Shown here one piece after another: positions 4,062-11,647 of a stretch of DNA of 46,354 nt; position 1 is the first letter of the stretch; every line of letters starts with the position of its first letter. This stretch comes from Bacteroidales bacterium (GTDB lineage: Bacteria; Bacteroidota; Bacteroidia; Bacteroidales; UBA932). The stretch spans positions 1-46,354 of the forward strand of contig JAGBJY010000039.1 in NCBI GenBank assembly GCA_017934185.1, read 5' to 3'. Under the pieces are notes generated by a model. It ran no database searches. It had not been told where the DNA came from and saw only the letters and a program-made list of their open reading frames with translations. The position numbers were made by a program, and so were the translations under genes.

Positions 4062-4566
4062 CAGTAAGAAACTTGCGGCGCTGGAAGCCCGGCTGGAAGG
4101 TCTTCAGGAAGAGCTTTCAGAGGCCCGCGAGCAGGCAAAGGCCGCAGAGGAGGCCAAGGCCGATTATCTGCGCCTGATGGCAGAATTCGACACTTTCCGC
4201 CGCCGCACGGCAGAAGAGAAGCTTGCCCTGGTGAGTTCGGCATCGGCCGAGACCATCAAGGGCCTTCTGCCTATTCTGGATGACTGTGAAATAGCCCTCT
4301 CGAACCTGGAAAAGAGCGAAGACAGCGAGGCTGCAAAAGAAGGCACTAAGATGATTTTCAACAAGTTGTCGGCTTATCTCAAAACCAAGGGCCTGGAGCG
4401 GATTGAGGCAAAAGGCGCCGATTTTGACACCGAACTGCACGAGGCCGTAACCACTTTCCCTGCCCCTGCCCAGGAGCAGAAGGGAAAGGTCATTGATGTG
4501 GTACAAACCGGTTATACGCTGGGCGGGAAGGTCCTCCGATACGCAAAAGTAGTTGTGGGAGCATAG
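4021..4566 (+). CDS. grpE: Nucleotide exchange factor GrpE
   Basis: GrpE releases ADP from DnaK in the cytoplasmic Hsp70 cycle. The 181-residue product has the long N-terminal coiled coil (about residues 15-60, rich in Ala/Glu/Lys), the family block [20 protein letters not shown], and a C-terminal beta-wing ending [10 protein letters not shown] and [18 protein letters not shown]. Length is normal. It overlaps the upstream HNH gene by 41 bases and is followed 2 bases later by dnaJ, the usual Bacteroidota order. dnaK itself is not in the window. Confidence 0.96.
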
Positions 4567-6260: not shown

Positions 6261-6334
6261 GGCTCCATAGCTCAATTGAATAGAGCATTTGACTACGGAT
6301 CAAAAGGTTACAGGTTTGAGTCCTGTTGGAGTCA
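6261..6334 (+). tRNA. tRNA-Arg (anticodon ACG)
   Basis: Cloverleaf drawn by hand: acceptor GGCTCCA/TGGAGTC (one G-U pair at position 2), D stem GCTC/GAGC, anticodon stem TTTGA/TCAAA with loop CTACGGA, five-base variable loop, T stem ACAGG/CCTGT with loop TTTGAGT, discriminator A6334. Anticodon ACG reads CGN arginine codons after deamination to inosine. The 3' CCA is not encoded (ACT follows). Confidence 0.95.
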
Positions 6335-6340
6335 CTAAAA

Positions 6341-6367
6341 AACCAGCTTTTCGGAGCTGGTTTTTTT
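6341..6367 (+). terminator. Intrinsic terminator after tRNA-Arg
   Basis: Stem AACCAGCT (6341-6348) with AGCTGGTT (6355-6362), extendable to a TTCG tetraloop, followed by a run of T (6361-6367). The T-run also supplies the -33 TTTG of the next promoter. Confidence 0.85.
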
Positions 6368-6396
6368 GTGTATAGAGCTGAATTTGGTTATCTTTG
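6365..6396 (+). promoter_or_regulatory. Promoter of the DUF1538/P-II/cysteine desulfidase operon
   Basis: -33 TTTG (6365-6368), 20-bp spacer, -7 TATCTTTG (6389-6396). The start codon of the first gene follows at 6415, giving a leader of roughly 10-12 bases. Confidence 0.7.
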
Positions 6397-6414: not shown

Positions 6415-7977
6415 ATGAAATCTCAGAATCCTATACTTAATGCTGTGCTGGGCCCGCTGAGGGAGAAACTTCGTGAATCACTGACCTCGGTGCTGCCGGT
6501 GAGCCTGCTGGTGCTGGCCCTGTCGGCCACTCCCTGGGTGAATCTTTCCCATCATGAGCTCCTGGTCTTCCTTCTGGCAGCGGGGCTCCTCATTGTGGGC
6601 ATCAGCCTTTTCAATCTGGGGGCCGATATGGCCATGACCCCCATGGGACAGTACATCGGCGAGGGACTCACCAGTTCCAAAAAGATGGGCCTGCTGCTGT
6701 CGGTGGCCTTTGTCATGGGTCTTCTCATTACCATCGCGGAGCCGGACCTGTCGGTGTTGGCCACGCAGGTGAGTGCCATTATGAACGGGACCGTGCTCAT
6801 TGTTACGGTGGGCATCGGCGTGGGCGTGATGCTGCTTCTGGGCGTTGTCAAAATCCTTTTCCACGCAGACCTTACCAGCATCCTTATCTACAGCTATATG
6901 GTACTGTTCTGCCTGGCCGCCCTCCTGATGGATAACAGCGAGGCCTTCCCGCTGCTGTCCATGTGCTTTGATTCCGGCGGCGTTACCACAGGGCCCATTA
7001 CCGTGCCCTTCATCATGGCCCTGGGTGTGGGCATCGCCCTCACGGTGGGTGGCCGGAACGCCAGTGAAAACAGCTTCGGCCTCATTGCCCTTTGCTCAGT
7101 GGGGCCCATTGCGGCTGTGCTTATTCTCTCCATGCTTTCCAGCGGCAACCTGGAATACAAAGTGCCCGATTATTCCATGGATGCCATCCTCTCCGGAGGC
7201 CTGGGCCATGTTTTTGGCCGGGCTATGGCGGATGTGGCCAAGTCGCTGGCGCTCATAGTGGTCTTCTTCTTTATCCTGCAGTTTGCCGTCCTGAAACTGC
7301 CCAAAACCAAAATTCTCCAGATTGTGGTGGGCATTGTGAATGCCTTCATCGGCCTGGTGCTTTTCCTGGCGGCGGTAGAGATGGCTTTTATGCCCATCGG
7401 CTACAAAATAGGCTTGGAACTGGCGCAGACCAGCCCTTTGTATCTCATTGTCTTTGCCTTTATCATCGGCATGGTGGTGGTGCTGGCCGAACCTGCCGTC
7501 CATGTGCTCAATGCCCAGGTCAATGACATTACCGGCGGGGAAGTGAGCCGCAGGCAGATGATGATTGCCCTCTCCGTGGGTGTGGGCGTTTCCATCGGCC
7601 TGTCCGTAATCCGCGTTTATTACGGTTTTTCGCTGCTGTATTACCTCATTCCCGGCTATGTGCTCTCGCTGGGCCTGTCCTTCCTGGTGCCCAAACTGTA
7701 CACGGCCATAGCCTTTGACTCCGGCGGTGTGGCCAGCGGTCCGCTTACTTCCAGTTTCATCTTGCCGCTGGTCATTGGCGCCTGCATGAGTATGCAGGGC
7801 GAATCCAAGGTGATGGAACTGGCCTTCGGGGTGGTGGCCATGGTGGCCATGACCCCGCTCATCACCATCCAAAGCCTGGGCTTCAAGTCCGTGCTTGCTA
7901 CCCGCCGGCGCCGCAATGCCGCTTTCCGGCGCATCCTTGCCAATGCGGCCGAAGATCCCATTATTTATTTTGACTAG
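6415..7977 (+). CDS. DUF1538 polytopic membrane protein (two internal repeats)
   Basis: A 520-residue inner-membrane protein of roughly 12 hydrophobic segments made of two homologous halves. The halves share the motifs AEPDLSVLATQVS (108-120) and AEPAVHVLNAQVN (358-370), and FDSGGVTTGP (185-194) and FDSGGVASGP (434-443), offset by about 250 residues. This matches the DUF1538 family, whose function is unknown; the inverted/duplicated architecture suggests a transporter. It opens a compact operon: 4 bases to a P-II-like gene, a 1-base overlap with a second, and an 8-base overlap with an L-cysteine desulfidase. By analogy with AmtB-GlnK, the P-II-like proteins may gate it. Substrate is inferred only: cysteine, sulfide, ammonium or a related compound. 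Confidence 0.85.
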   Translation: MKSQNPILNAVLGPLREKLRESLTSVLPVSLLVLALSATPWVNLSHHELLVFLLAAGLLIVGISLFNLGADMAMTPMGQYIGEGLTSSKKMGLLLSVAFVMGLLITIAEPDLSVLATQVSAIMNGTVLIVTVGIGVGVMLLLGVVKILFHADLTSILIYSYMVLFCLAALLMDNSEAFPLLSMCFDSGGVTTGPITVPFIMALGVGIALTVGGRNASENSFGLIALCSVGPIAAVLILSMLSSGNLEYKVPDYSMDAILSGGLGHVFGRAMADVAKSLALIVVFFFILQFAVLKLPKTKILQIVVGIVNAFIGLVLFLAAVEMAFMPIGYKIGLELAQTSPLYLIVFAFIIGMVVVLAEPAVHVLNAQVNDITGGEVSRRQMMIALSVGVGVSIGLSVIRVYYGFSLLYYLIPGYVLSLGLSFLVPKLYTAIAFDSGGVASGPLTSSFILPLVIGACMSMQGESKVMELAFGVVAMVAMTPLITIQSLGFKSVLATRRRRNAAFRRILANAAEDPIIYFD

Positions 7978-7981
7978 CGCT

Positions 7982-8350
7982 ATGGCAGAGACAAGAAATA
8001 TAGCTCCCATGAAGCTGGAACTGGTGGTTGCCATTGTCCATACCAACAAGATGGCCTACTATTCCAGCCTCATTCAGGCCCGGCAGGCCAATCTGCAATT
8101 CCGGGTCCCGTGCAAGGGTACAAGCCATCTGATTTTGGATTACCTGGGCCTGGCCGAAAGGCCCAAGAATCTCATTATGAGCGTAGTACGCAGCGACGAA
8201 TCGGCCGAGCTCATCGAGACCCTCAAAGAGCATTTCAAGAAGGGGAAAGACTACAAAGGCGTGGCCTTCACCATCCCTTTCAGCAGCATGATTGGTACGC
8301 TGTCCTATGGTTTTCTAAGCAACGAAAAAAGAGTCAAGGAGGAAGCATAA
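7982..8350 (+). CDS. P-II-like regulator 1
   Basis: A 122-residue small protein with a ferredoxin-like P-II pattern: first strand LELVVAIVHT, central GTSHLILDYLGL, second strand LIMSVVRSDES, and GVAFTIPFSSMIG at the end. P-II proteins are cytoplasmic trimers that sense ATP/ADP and 2-oxoglutarate and bind membrane transporters through a T-loop. The T-loop is divergent and the uridylylation tyrosine of GlnB is not recognisable. I chose the ATG at 7982 (MAETRN) because upstream ATGs lie inside the DUF1538 gene; the internal M10 (MKLELV) is an alternative. Its stop TAA shares one base with the next start. Confidence 0.75.
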   Translation: MAETRNIAPMKLELVVAIVHTNKMAYYSSLIQARQANLQFRVPCKGTSHLILDYLGLAERPKNLIMSVVRSDESAELIETLKEHFKKGKDYKGVAFTIPFSSMIGTLSYGFLSNEKRVKEEA

Positions 8351-8661
8351 TGAATAAGTACGAACTTGTAGTGTGCATTGTGAACTCCGGTTATTCGGAG
8401 AATGTGATGGCCGCAGCCCGCGCTTCGGGGGCCCGTGGCGGCAGCATTGTACGCGGCCGCGGCTCCGCCAATCCGGAGGCCGAGGAATTCTTCAACATTA
8501 CCATCCAGCCGGACAAGGAGGTAGTGCTCATTCTGGTGAGCGCCGATATCAAGGATGAGGTGATGAAGAGCGTGTACAAAAACGCCGGCCTTTCCACCGA
8601 AGGGGTGGGCATTGTATTCTCCCTTCCTGTAGACAAAACTACGCTGGAACTCAATGACTGA
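8350..8661 (+). CDS. P-II-like regulator 2
   Basis: A 103-residue P-II family protein: MNKYELVVCIVNSGYSENV at the start, a T-loop region ARGGSIVRGRGSANPEAEEF (28-47), the strand FFNITIQPDKEVVLILV and the end GLSTEGVGIVFSLPVDKTT. The arrangement is that of GlnB/GlnK but the modified tyrosine and the C-terminal arginine pair that contacts ATP are not seen. ATG at 8350-8352 overlaps the upstream stop (TAATG). Two different P-II-like proteins side by side suggest a heterotypic sensor for the adjacent DUF1538 protein; this is inference. Confidence 0.8.
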   Translation: MNKYELVVCIVNSGYSENVMAAARASGARGGSIVRGRGSANPEAEEFFNITIQPDKEVVLILVSADIKDEVMKSVYKNAGLSTEGVGIVFSLPVDKTTLELND

Positions 8662-9982
8662 CCGGGAGATAATAGCGCTCATCCACCGCGAGGTGAAACC
8701 CGCGCTGGGGTGCACGGAGCCCATCGCCGTAGCCCTGGCCGTGGCCAAAGCCGCAGAGATTATCCACGACAACTGCAGCTGCTGTCCGGAGTTTCGCCTT
8801 AGGGCCGATTTCTCCATCGAGGTGGCCGTAAGCGGCAATATCCTCAAAAACGGCATGGGCGTGGGCATCCCCGGCACCGGCATGGTGGGCCTCCCCGTTG
8901 CGGCCGCCCTGGGCGCTGTCTGCGGCGACTCCTCCAAGGGCCTGGAAGTGCTCTCCGGCCTCAATGCAATTGCCGTAGCGCGCGCTAAAGAGCTGGTATC
9001 CAGCGGAAAAGTCAAAATTTCCGTAGCCGATACAGAGCGCCTTCTCTATGTGAAAGCCACGGTGAGGGCCGGCAGCGGCATTGCCGCCAGCGCCGAGGTA
9101 GACCCTCACGCCTGCGCCGTCATCGAGGACGATCACGACCGCATCGTGGAAACCAGTTTTGCCGACAAGATCCTCATGAGCTCAGAATCGGCCGCCGCTG
9201 CCAAGGAGTATCCGGAAGAAGATTACGACCTGTCCGTCAAGGCCATCTGGGACTTCGCCCGCACCGCCCCCTTCGAGGACATCGCCTTCATCCTGGAAGA
9301 CCGCACGCTGAACCTGGCCCTGGCCAGGGAAGGCCTCAAGGCCGATTATGGCCTCCGCGTGGGGAAAACCATCCGGGAAAACCAGAAGGAAGTGTTTGGC
9401 GACGACTACATGAGTTTTGCCATGGGTATGACGGCCGCCGCCTCCGATGCCCGTATGGCCGGCAGCACGCTTCCCGCCATGTCCAACAGCGGCAGCGGCA
9501 ACCAGGGCATCACCGTGTCCATGCCGGTCATCGCCTATGCCCTCAAATACAATGTGGACGATGAGCGCCTGGCCCGGGCCCTTATCCTGAGCAACCTGGT
9601 GGCCATTCATATCAAGCACTATCTGGGAAAATTATCGGCCCTTTGCGGCTGTGTGGTGGCCTCTACCGGCTCTTCCTGCGGCATTGTGTACCTGGAAGGC
9701 GGCGGTTATGAAGCCATCTGTGCCGCCATCAAGAACATGGCCGGAAACATCACCGGCATGGTGTGCGACGGCGCCAAAGTGGGCTGCGCCATGAAAGTGG
9801 CTTCCGGGGTGTCCTGTGCGGTGCAATCGGCCGTGCTGGCCCTCAGCGGTACCTGCATCCCTTCCACCGACGGCATTGTGGAGGAAGACGTGGAAAAGAC
9901 CATCCGGAACATCGGGGCCATCGGCTCTGCCGGCATGAAGGCCACGGACCGGATGATTCTGGATATTATGCTCTGCAAGTAG
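8654..9982 (+). CDS. cyuA: L-cysteine desulfidase (CyuA/UPF0597 family)
   Basis: Predicted to break L-cysteine into pyruvate, ammonia and hydrogen sulfide using an oxygen-labile [4Fe-4S] cluster, like Methanocaldococcus MJ1025 and E. coli CyuA (YhaM); the fold is related to iron-sulfur L-serine dehydratase alpha. 442 residues with the family blocks VKPALGCTEPIAVALA (cluster cysteine C20), MTAAASDARMAGS, NSGSGNQGITVSMPV, ASTGSSCGIVYLEGGG and GMVCDGAKVGCAMKVASG (further cluster cysteines). Its ATG lies 8 bases inside the P-II gene, so it is coupled to the P-II/DUF1538 unit. It ends 1 base from the convergent cysE. The symbol is given by family. Confidence 0.88.
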   Translation: MTDREIIALIHREVKPALGCTEPIAVALAVAKAAEIIHDNCSCCPEFRLRADFSIEVAVSGNILKNGMGVGIPGTGMVGLPVAAALGAVCGDSSKGLEVLSGLNAIAVARAKELVSSGKVKISVADTERLLYVKATVRAGSGIAASAEVDPHACAVIEDDHDRIVETSFADKILMSSESAAAAKEYPEEDYDLSVKAIWDFARTAPFEDIAFILEDRTLNLALAREGLKADYGLRVGKTIRENQKEVFGDDYMSFAMGMTAAASDARMAGSTLPAMSNSGSGNQGITVSMPVIAYALKYNVDDERLARALILSNLVAIHIKHYLGKLSALCGCVVASTGSSCGIVYLEGGGYEAICAAIKNMAGNITGMVCDGAKVGCAMKVASGVSCAVQSAVLALSGTCIPSTDGIVEEDVEKTIRNIGAIGSAGMKATDRMILDIMLCK

Positions 9983-9983
9983 C

Positions 9984-10718
9984 TCAGATACCGCTCCCGT
10001 CAGAGAAAGACTCCACTGCACGTCCCTGCAAAATGCGGGAATGCTGCGGTACCGAATGGGTGAGCCACACGTTGCCGCCAATGACGGAATGGGTGCCGAT
10101 GGTGATGCGCCCCAGGATGGACGCATTGGAATACACGGTAACCCGGTCTTCCAGGATGGGGTGGCGGGGAAGGTTCATGGGGCGGCCTTCGGTATCGTAG
10201 CGGAAGTTTTTGGCTCCCAGCGTAACGCCCTGATACAGCGTAACATGCTCTCCAATAACGGCGGTTTCTCCAATCACAATGCCCGTCCCGTGGTCTATGG
10301 CAAAATAAGGGCCGATGACCGCGCCGGGATGGATGTCAATGCCCGTGACGTTGTGCGCATATTCCGTGAGCATGCGGGGAATCACCGGCACCCCCAGCCC
10401 CAGCAGCACATGGGCCGAGCGGTAGTACAGCATGGCCGTGACGGCCGGATAGCAGTACACAATTTCCTGGATGCCTTTTTGTGCCGGGTCGTTCTGGGCC
10501 ACGGCCTCTACGTCGGTGATCACCAGACTGCGAATCCGGGGCAGTTCCCCAATGAAAGCCTCTGCGGTGGCGGCGTCGGTGATGGTTTCAAGTTCTGTCC
10601 GGATGGTTTGAAGGGCCAGGGCAGGCTCTGTGTCGCTGTACTCAGGGAACACGTAGTCCTTCACATGCGCCATCAGGGGCTTCAGGTGTTCTACAGTCCG
10701 GTTGAGGGAGAGGTTCAT
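9984..10718 (-). CDS. cysE: Serine O-acetyltransferase
   Basis: Makes O-acetylserine from serine and acetyl-CoA, the first step of cysteine synthesis. 244 residues: a helical N-terminal domain and a left-handed beta-helix of hexapeptide repeats with GIDIHPGAVIGPYFAIDHG (catalytic His region), TGIVIGETAVIGEHVTLYQG and NLPRHPILEDRVTVYSNASI. Start overlaps the cysK stop by 4 bases (ATGA). It faces the cysteine desulfidase gene tail-to-tail with a single base between stops and no terminator visible between them, so transcripts from both sides probably overlap. Confidence 0.95.
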   Translation of the reverse strand: MNLSLNRTVEHLKPLMAHVKDYVFPEYSDTEPALALQTIRTELETITDAATAEAFIGELPRIRSLVITDVEAVAQNDPAQKGIQEIVYCYPAVTAMLYYRSAHVLLGLGVPVIPRMLTEYAHNVTGIDIHPGAVIGPYFAIDHGTGIVIGETAVIGEHVTLYQGVTLGAKNFRYDTEGRPMNLPRHPILEDRVTVYSNASILGRITIGTHSVIGGNVWLTHSVPQHSRILQGRAVESFSDGSGI

Positions 10719-11647
10719 AGCGGATACTCTTCAAAAGCGTAGAGGACGGTGGAGAGGTAACGCTCGCCAGTGTCCGGCAGCAGCGCCACAATCATTTTCC
10801 CTTCGTTCTCCGGGCGGCGGCTCAGGGCCAGGGCTGCGCTGAAGGCCGCGCCGGAGGAAATGCCCACCAGGAGGCCCTCCTTTGCAGCGAGCAGTCGGGA
10901 GCCCCGGATGGCATCGTCATCGGCCACGGGAAGTATTTCGTCCACTACGGAAGGGCTGTAGGTGTCCGGGACAAAGCCGGCGCCGATGCCCTGGATTTTG
11001 TGCTTTCCGGCAATGCCGGTGGAAAGGACGGCCGAGGAAGCGGGCTCCACAGCCACCACTTTCACGCCGGAGTTATGGCGCTTGAGGGCTTTTCCGCTGC
11101 CGCTCACGGTGCCGCCGGTGCCTACGCCGGCCACAAAAATATCTACCTGCCCGTCGGTCTCTTCCCAGATTTCTTCGCCGGTGGTCCTTTCATGCACGGC
11201 GGGGTTGGCGGGATTCACAAACTGTCCCAGAATCACGGCGCCGGGGGTGCTGTCCCTCAGGGCATCGGCCTTGGCAATGGCGCCTTTCATGCCTTCTGCG
11301 CCGGGGGTGAGCACCAGCTGAGCCCCCAGGGCTTTAAGGAGGTTGCGCCGTTCCAGACTCATGGTGTCGGGCATGGTGAGCACCACTTTATAGCCTTTGG
11401 CCGTTCCTACCCAGGCCAGGCCCACACCGGTGTTGCCGCTGGTGGGTTCGATGATGGTGGCGCCGGGGCGCAGGACGCCGCTCTTTTCTGCGTCTTCTAT
11501 CATGGCCAGGGCTATGCGGTCTTTCACGGAGCCGCCGGGATTGAAGTATTCCAGTTTTAGGACGATGCGGGCTTTCTGCCCTTCAAAGCCGCTCACTTCC
11601 AGCAGGGGAGTGCGGCCGATGAGTTGGGTGAGACTCTGATAAATCAT
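10715..11647 (-). CDS. cysK: Cysteine synthase A (O-acetylserine sulfhydrylase)
   Basis: PLP enzyme that makes cysteine from O-acetylserine and sulfide. 310 residues with the PLP lysine in NPGGSVKDR (K42), the substrate loop IEPTSGNTGVGLA, the phosphate-binding glycine loop GVGTGGTVSGSGKAL and the late GISSGAAFSAAL. Operon with cysE (4-base overlap), so the two subunits of the cysteine synthase complex are made together. The start lies only about 17 bases from a hairpin-T-run that follows tRNA-Glu on the same strand, so transcription probably arrives by read-through or from a promoter I cannot see. Confidence 0.96.
   Translation of the reverse strand: MIYQSLTQLIGRTPLLEVSGFEGQKARIVLKLEYFNPGGSVKDRIALAMIEDAEKSGVLRPGATIIEPTSGNTGVGLAWVGTAKGYKVVLTMPDTMSLERRNLLKALGAQLVLTPGAEGMKGAIAKADALRDSTPGAVILGQFVNPANPAVHERTTGEEIWEETDGQVDIFVAGVGTGGTVSGSGKALKRHNSGVKVVAVEPASSAVLSTGIAGKHKIQGIGAGFVPDTYSPSVVDEILPVADDDAIRGSRLLAAKEGLLVGISSGAAFSAALALSRRPENEGKMIVALLPDTGERYLSTVLYAFEEYPL

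Follow-up and report, generated by a model that had tools for sequence, protein, structure and literature searches.

Most of what is known about P-II proteins concerns the sensing of nitrogen and carbon. GlnK and AmtB are a precedent for a P-II protein encoded beside the transporter it controls (PMC3831643, PMC8395244), SbtB is a precedent for a P-II protein beside its transporter or target, and NifI1/NifI2 are described as two different P-II proteins encoded inside the operon of their target (PMC8395244). On the membrane side, UmpAB of Halomonas zhaodongensis has been reported as a pH-dependent Na+(Li+, K+)/H+ antiporter, a hetero-dimer of two homologues with seven transmembrane (TM) helices each, neither of which suffices for full function on its own (Meng et al. 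2017, PMC5484666); these are the sole characterised members of the DUF1538 family that we found. Here we describe a locus in which genes of both kinds stand together, at positions 6415–8661 of a 46,354-nucleotide stretch from the draft genome of a gut Bacteroidales bacterium (GCA_017934185.1, contig JAGBJY010000039.1, positions 1 to 46,354; hereafter the window). It encodes on the + strand a DUF1538 protein of 520 amino acids (aa; 6415..7977) followed by two P-II-like proteins, A (122 aa, 7982..8350) and B (103 aa, 8350..8661), and the operon continues with a fourth open reading frame, the cysteine desulfidase gene cyuA (442 aa, 8654..9982).

The DUF1538 and A frames are separated by 4 bases, A and B overlap by 1 base, and B and cyuA overlap by 8 bases, exactly as listed in a first-pass annotation made by a model from the letters and their reading frames. 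We favour, by a modest degree of confidence, reading 6415–8661 as a self-contained cassette of a fused two-repeat DUF1538 monovalent-cation/H+ antiporter and two dedicated P-II-like regulators, to which cyuA is a local addition. If true, a constant pairing of P-II proteins with an antiporter would mean that P-II signalling controls the balance of ions and pH, and it would give the DUF1538 family, whose regulation we did not find described, a concrete partner and a ligand question. No report of a link between DUF1538 and P-II was found in the literature searched, a body that leaves aside most subscription-journal papers and all bioRxiv preprints. The DUF1538 and UmpAB papers whose text was searched for P-II or PII held no relevant mention, the single co-occurrence of DUF1538 and PII being a chance match inside a printed motif, and in the UmpAB paper (PMC5484666) the terms P-II, PII, GlnB and GlnK have 0 occurrences.

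Linkage of DUF1538 to P-II-like genes

DUF1538 loci were scanned with hidden Markov models derived from the proteins of the window and relatives of these. Four sets were used: 32 genome and plasmid loci; 20 further loci of the same genus; named DUF1538 relatives, being the best 80 of at least 583 (the scope of all statements on named loci); and, out of 139 DUF1538 genomes among 398 sampled from the phylum of a Clostridia-type relative, taken as Bacillota, the 30 loci with the highest scores. P-II lay downstream in 29/32 loci of the first set, the other three ending at a contig end, and in all 20 loci of the second. Among the named loci, A stood behind DUF1538 in 79/80, the remaining one being cut by a contig end, and B was found in 77/77 uncut loci, two more being cut just after A; the fourth set had one or two P-II domains in 29 of its 30 loci, and one locus was cut. 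Altogether, a same-strand P-II gene stands directly downstream of DUF1538 in 157/157 uncut loci (153 distinct ones, five contigs occurring twice among the 162 loci), and all five misses end at a contig end. The P-II-like pair is the constant partner of DUF1538 in the loci examined, which span Bacteroidota to Alphaproteobacteria, and control of the transporter by P-II, as proposed at first pass, is what this constant partnership would naturally suggest.

The spacing is tight as well. In the named loci the median gap was 9 bases between DUF1538 and A and 1 base between A and B, and gaps were within 30 bases in 74/79 and 74/77 cases, respectively; the larger gaps probably reflect start-codon choice and, in locus L185, a broken frame. 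The nearest named loci come from rumen and gut Bacteroidales metagenome-assembled genomes (MAGs), further ones mostly from Clostridia. The genes are also inherited together: across 61 relatives, B (E≤1e-6) was detected in 11/12 DUF1538 genomes and 0/49 others (Fisher p 3e-11), the twelfth DUF1538 genome (G025) having its locus cut at a contig end, and A was detected in 10 genomes, all with DUF1538. DUF1538 was absent from all 14 control genomes. When the neighbours in 130 loci were clustered, using longest-frame calls rather than curated genes, the next most frequent family after DUF1538 and P-II occurred in 15 loci at scattered offsets; smaller groups of 13 loci (opposite strand, offset about +4.4 kb) and 10 loci (offset about +2.2 kb) are probably within-genus synteny.

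The architecture of the pairing varies. Split UmpA and UmpB genes are accompanied by one P-II gene (for example L071, L072 and L283) or two, and fused DUF1538 genes by two P-II genes or by a tandem fusion (L068–L070). One frame of 380 aa directly behind a long DUF1538 gene (L084:6501-7643) contains three P-II domains (50.8, 57.0 and 30.4 bits), and a 400-aa frame behind another long DUF1538 gene (L064:5332-6534), with at least one clear and one weak P-II match, perhaps carries three as well. These two chains, both from Bacteroidota other than the window genome, are possibly single-chain P-II trimers.

P-II domains were also seen next to other transporters. The window genome has a second P-II-like gene (L312:5536-5829, contig C46, minus strand; 97 aa, PF00543 28.4 bits), which lies directly behind a 1033-aa gene judged by eye to encode an RND-type efflux pump and would make another P-II/transporter pairing. 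In two DUF1538-bearing genomes (L267 in G673 and L268 in G668), a canonical P-II domain forms the C-terminus of what by eye looks like an Amt-type ammonium transporter, both parts lying in one frame of about 590–600 aa.

The DUF1538 protein and its kinship with UmpAB

Pfam PF07556 matches the window protein in two stretches (399 bits against a cut-off of 22.6), and the motifs AEP (residues 108 and 358) and FDSGG (185 and 434) are present once per half, as the two repeats described at first pass would have it. With the NCBIfam models, UmpA (NF041627) scored 165.3 bits over the first half and UmpB (NF041628) 143.3 bits over the second, each half being matched across nearly the whole model. Membership of the UmpAB equivalogs was rejected at these scores, the cut-offs being 490 and 500 bits; six split-type subunits from other lineages likewise reached only 78–137 bits against the two models. 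Judged by these profiles, the first half is a distant homologue of UmpA and the second of UmpB. The likeness to UmpAB lies in the DUF1538 domains, the two homologous halves of about seven helices and the conserved acidic motifs, and the difference in the fusion of both halves into one chain and in scores far under the equivalog cut-offs.

An AlphaFold2 (AF2) model of the protein (63 rows, pLDDT 89.3, pTM 0.89) has 14 long helices or helix pairs, that is, seven TM per half, and the helices with AEP and FDSGG are broken near those motifs. Counts of Lys plus Arg alternate in a way that fits 14 TM helices with both termini in the cytoplasm and halves of opposite orientation, in a pattern that assumes alternation and is weak in loops 6, 11 and 12. 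A search of PDB sequences with the DUF1538 profile gave 0 matches. With a confident model and no good PDB match, the fold of this transporter family may be one not yet solved. Viral contigs, scanned with a single distant UmpB-like protein, yielded no relative.

The protein looks like a transporter-type membrane protein and UmpAB homologue, and its earlier designation as a transporter stands on that footing. The substrates suggested along with it, namely cysteine, sulfide or ammonium, are not supported, the characterised UmpAB exchanging Na+, Li+ or K+ for H+. A 2026 machine-learning study (PMC13255231) placed DUF1538 in its top 20 of Pfam families for the prediction of growth pH, together with transporters of K+ and Na+.

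The presence of K+ among the UmpAB substrates (PMC5484666) leaves some room for export of ammonium by NH4+/H+ exchange, NH4+ resembling K+ and P-II proteins being the classical attendants of ammonium transporters. The carriers of DUF1538 would suit such a role in that they include Acetoanaerobium, Peptoclostridium and many gut MAGs, many of them gut or fermenting anaerobes; however, DUF1538 occurs in the Alphaproteobacteria Methylocystis and Chelativorans too, no ammonium assay of the family was found in the portion of the literature searched, and A and B are without the GlnK-type ligand residues described below. We regard ammonium export as improbable.

The P-II-like proteins and a proposed model for their action

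Pfam P-II (PF00543) matched B with 22.6 bits (E 1.4e-4) and A with 15.5 bits (E 0.023), both under the gathering cut-off of 25 bits; among homologues, 54/54 rows of B and 37/61 rows of A matched at E≤0.1. The two proteins are homologous to each other by hhalign (98.2%, E 5e-14). Searched against the PDB, the B profile recovered P-II chains (best 9p1x, E 1.2e-6; GlnB/GlnK near 1e-4). The A profile had no confident match among PDB sequences, its best being an acyl carrier protein at E 0.2, which speaks against P-II membership of A. The AF2 model of A (pLDDT 76.6) has the order beta-alpha-beta-beta-alpha-beta with a short helix replacing the T-loop, and its best PDB matches were CPII and GlnK1, followed lower in the list by SbtB and CutA1. 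By fold, taken for A from this model, and by profile, A and B belong to the P-II superfamily. They share a P-II-like fold with the inorganic-carbon proteins CPII and SbtB, CPII being first among the matches of the A model, and differ from them in sequence (9–18% identity of A to the listed CPII and SbtB chains) and in being a pair of genes beside DUF1538.

The residues that bind ligand in GlnK, at positions K58, G89, K90, F92, R101 and R103 (PMC8395244), were compared by aligning A and B homologues with three canonical P-II sequences. The K58 column has K in 78/78 B and 67/80 A, G89 is invariant in both, and the F92 column has F in 77/78 B and 51/80 A. The ATP-site K90 is replaced, by I in 77/78 B, window B included, and by I or V in 79/80 A. 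At R101 and R103 no Arg is conserved in B (K at 103 in 10/78) and A is gapped; two of the three canonical rows themselves have K in the R101 column. The T-loop is shortened in B, and A is without one of canonical length. The first-pass statement that both proteins lack the uridylylation tyrosine holds for B, in which F is aligned there; in A, a Y of the short helix falls in the column. Canonical GlnB/GlnK-type P-II was rejected on the residues at Lys90, Arg101/Arg103 and Tyr51. Because K90 and the conserved C-loop Arg are lost, it is unlikely that these P-II-like proteins hold ATP in the canonical manner, and A and B are best read as dedicated regulators rather than GlnB-type nitrogen sensors. 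The locus thus resembles glnK-amtB in that a P-II superfamily gene adjoins the gene of a membrane transporter that it presumably controls, and differs in the transporter family and in the missing K90, C-loop Arg and Tyr51 T-loop chemistry. Paired P-II genes in one operon are shared with NifI1/NifI2, whose target is nitrogenase.

Another ligand that might be considered is cyclic di-AMP (c-di-AMP). The pair would then sense adenylates or, in the manner of PstA/DarA, c-di-AMP, with the antiporter as one effector of K+ homeostasis. In the literature c-di-AMP is described as a K+ messenger and PstA as a PII-like c-di-AMP receptor, and a diadenylate cyclase (DAC) domain was found in 13/15 DUF1538 genomes tested, including the window genome. 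This co-occurrence does not discriminate, since 11/14 control genomes, all without DUF1538, carry DAC too; DAC was moreover not detected in two of the 15 DUF1538 genomes, and the PDB sequence searches with A and B did not list PstA. We consider c-di-AMP or adenylate sensing unlikely.

Under the favoured reading of a DUF1538 antiporter with its own P-II-like regulators, we infer that DUF1538 would exchange protons against a monovalent cation (Na+, K+ or both), along a path presumably formed by the broken helices with AEP and FDSGG, two in each half. A and B would assemble into a mixed oligomer of the P-II type, dock on the cytoplasmic face of the transporter and gate it according to a small ligand, which would be bound otherwise than in the ATP/2-oxoglutarate manner of GlnB/GlnK. 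The gene cyuA would have come to lie downstream of the cassette, as far as seen in the window genome only.

Several points weigh against this reading. With 165 and 143 bits where the equivalogs require 490 and 500, the window protein falls in a distant clade, so its substrate may differ from that of UmpAB. A Foldseek comparison of the DUF1538 model with the PDB returned no match at E≤0.001 (best E 0.013), and thus lends no structural support to an antiporter fold. Direct binding of A and B to DUF1538 is inferred from linkage only. The loci behind that linkage are biased towards the best-scoring relatives (80 of at least 583 and 30 of 139) and leave out the umpAB neighbourhoods of Vibrio and of Halomonas, the latter the characterised system, as well as two Bacteroidota hits under the cut-off (G352 and G276) and 2/9 plasmid records (H4 and H9). 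Finally, and bearing on the local status of cyuA, CyuA is modestly commoner in the DUF1538 genomes of the genus (45/54 vs 131/196, p 0.02, a value that ignores kinship and completeness and that we distrust).

A wider proposal, which we advance more tentatively and at somewhat under even chances, is that DUF1538 antiporters own a branch of P-II proteins that has shed the ATP/2-oxoglutarate chemistry. Starting from one gene, this branch would have expanded into an A/B pair, into tandem fusions and into a chain of about three domains that might be a covalent trimer. P-II would then directly govern Na+/K+ and pH homeostasis in a large share of gut anaerobes through a new ligand.

The cysteine desulfidase gene and the surroundings of the cassette

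The protein encoded by cyuA (8654..9982, + strand, outside the conserved cassette) matched PDB 9fsl (E 1.1e-33) and carries the motifs GCTE (residues 19–22), CGC (331–333) and CDGAKVGC (371–378). The three cluster cysteines and the catalytic Glu to which roles have been assigned (PMC12647591) are present, and by sequence this is a genuine [4Fe-4S] L-cysteine desulfidase, like the E. coli and archaeal CyuA in its cluster and catalytic residues. E. coli cyuA is reported to sit with the importer gene cyuP; the window operon differs in that no cyuP-like gene was recognised in it, CyuP and DUF1538 not having been compared with each other.

Given the 8-base overlap with B and the absence of a Bacteroidales promoter match just before cyuA, the gene is probably co-transcribed with the operon in this genome, and it may be translationally coupled to the gene upstream. 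A shared transcript, the adjoining cysE and cysK and the slight tendency of CyuA and DUF1538 to co-occur in the genus all fit the first-pass proposal, in which DUF1538 moves cysteine, sulfide or ammonium under the P-II pair, forming with cyuA a cysteine-catabolism module beside cysE-cysK. The neighbourhoods of relatives speak differently. Of 250 genomes of the genus, 54 have DUF1538, 176 have CyuA and 45 have both. Among the 35 of these 45 with a listed CyuA position, DUF1538 and cyuA adjoin in one, the window genome; the other 34 pairs are on separate contigs or, in G003, G482, G487 and G650, at distances of about 90 kb upwards, most being on different contigs of drafts, a state by itself compatible with adjacency. 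For the ten genomes without a listed CyuA position, the surroundings of DUF1538 were scanned in four (G008, G015, G023 and G483), and no CyuA was found near it. Nor was CyuA found in 28 same-genus DUF1538 loci (L053, L055–L061 and L159–L178), which extend about 1.6 to 6 kb beyond B.

The wider samples agree. No cyuA adjoins DUF1538 in any of the 80 named loci, 66 of which reach at least 1.3 kb past B; in one of them (L232) a cyuA-like frame lies on the opposite strand, about 4.4 kb from DUF1538. Conversely, 20 cyuA regions of relatives had no DUF1538, cysE or cysK nearby. A conserved cysteine-catabolism module was rejected on this linkage (1/35 genus genomes, 0/80 named loci), and, as far as this sample goes, it already stands refuted as a conserved unit: for the cysteine part, DUF1538 is not associated with UPF0597, a lack of association named beforehand as refuting the proposal. 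With UmpAB as a further precedent, one for monovalent cations, we give the cysteine module very little credence. The gene cyuA seems to be a local passenger of the operon, functionally separate from the cassette, and the linkage data correct an attractive but unsupported tie to cysteine breakdown.

A junction known from one genome could also be an artefact of assembly or binning, the more so in a draft (2.13 Mb, completeness 85.8%, contamination 4.8%). However, the 8-base overlap is operon-like and would rarely be produced by a random join, and the junction lies inside a 46 kb contig that holds the genome's only cyuA match. An artefact appears most improbable.

Downstream, a cysE-like serine acetyltransferase gene (9984..10718; TIGR01172 149 bits, under the cut-off of 210.65) and cysK for cysteine synthase A (10715..11647; TIGR01139 427 bits, over the cut-off) lie outside the cassette on the - strand, convergent with cyuA, in the tail-to-tail arrangement reported at first pass. 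The stop codons of cyuA and cysE are separated by one base (window 9975–9990) and a simple scan called no terminator between them, so the transcripts of this gene for cysteine breakdown and this gene for cysteine synthesis may overlap. A direct-repeat search of the window gave only short families of two to four copies each.

Upstream, the operon is preceded by a tRNA-Arg gene (acg; 6261..6335, + strand, ARAGORN) and, just after it, by a stem-loop with a T run (6333–6370, from an inverted-repeat search) that looks like the terminator of the tRNA gene. A candidate promoter of the operon (6365..6396, + strand) was assigned by its match to TTTG-N20-TAnnTTTG, which we take to be the Bacteroidales promoter consensus. 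Matches to TTTG-N19-21-TAnnTTTG number 7 in the window against 0.26 expected from shuffled sequence. They lie at 4544, 5766, 6365, 11816, 13336, 16107 and 16730, and several precede gene starts, among them those of rplS, DUF1538 and tRNA-Glu with cysK.

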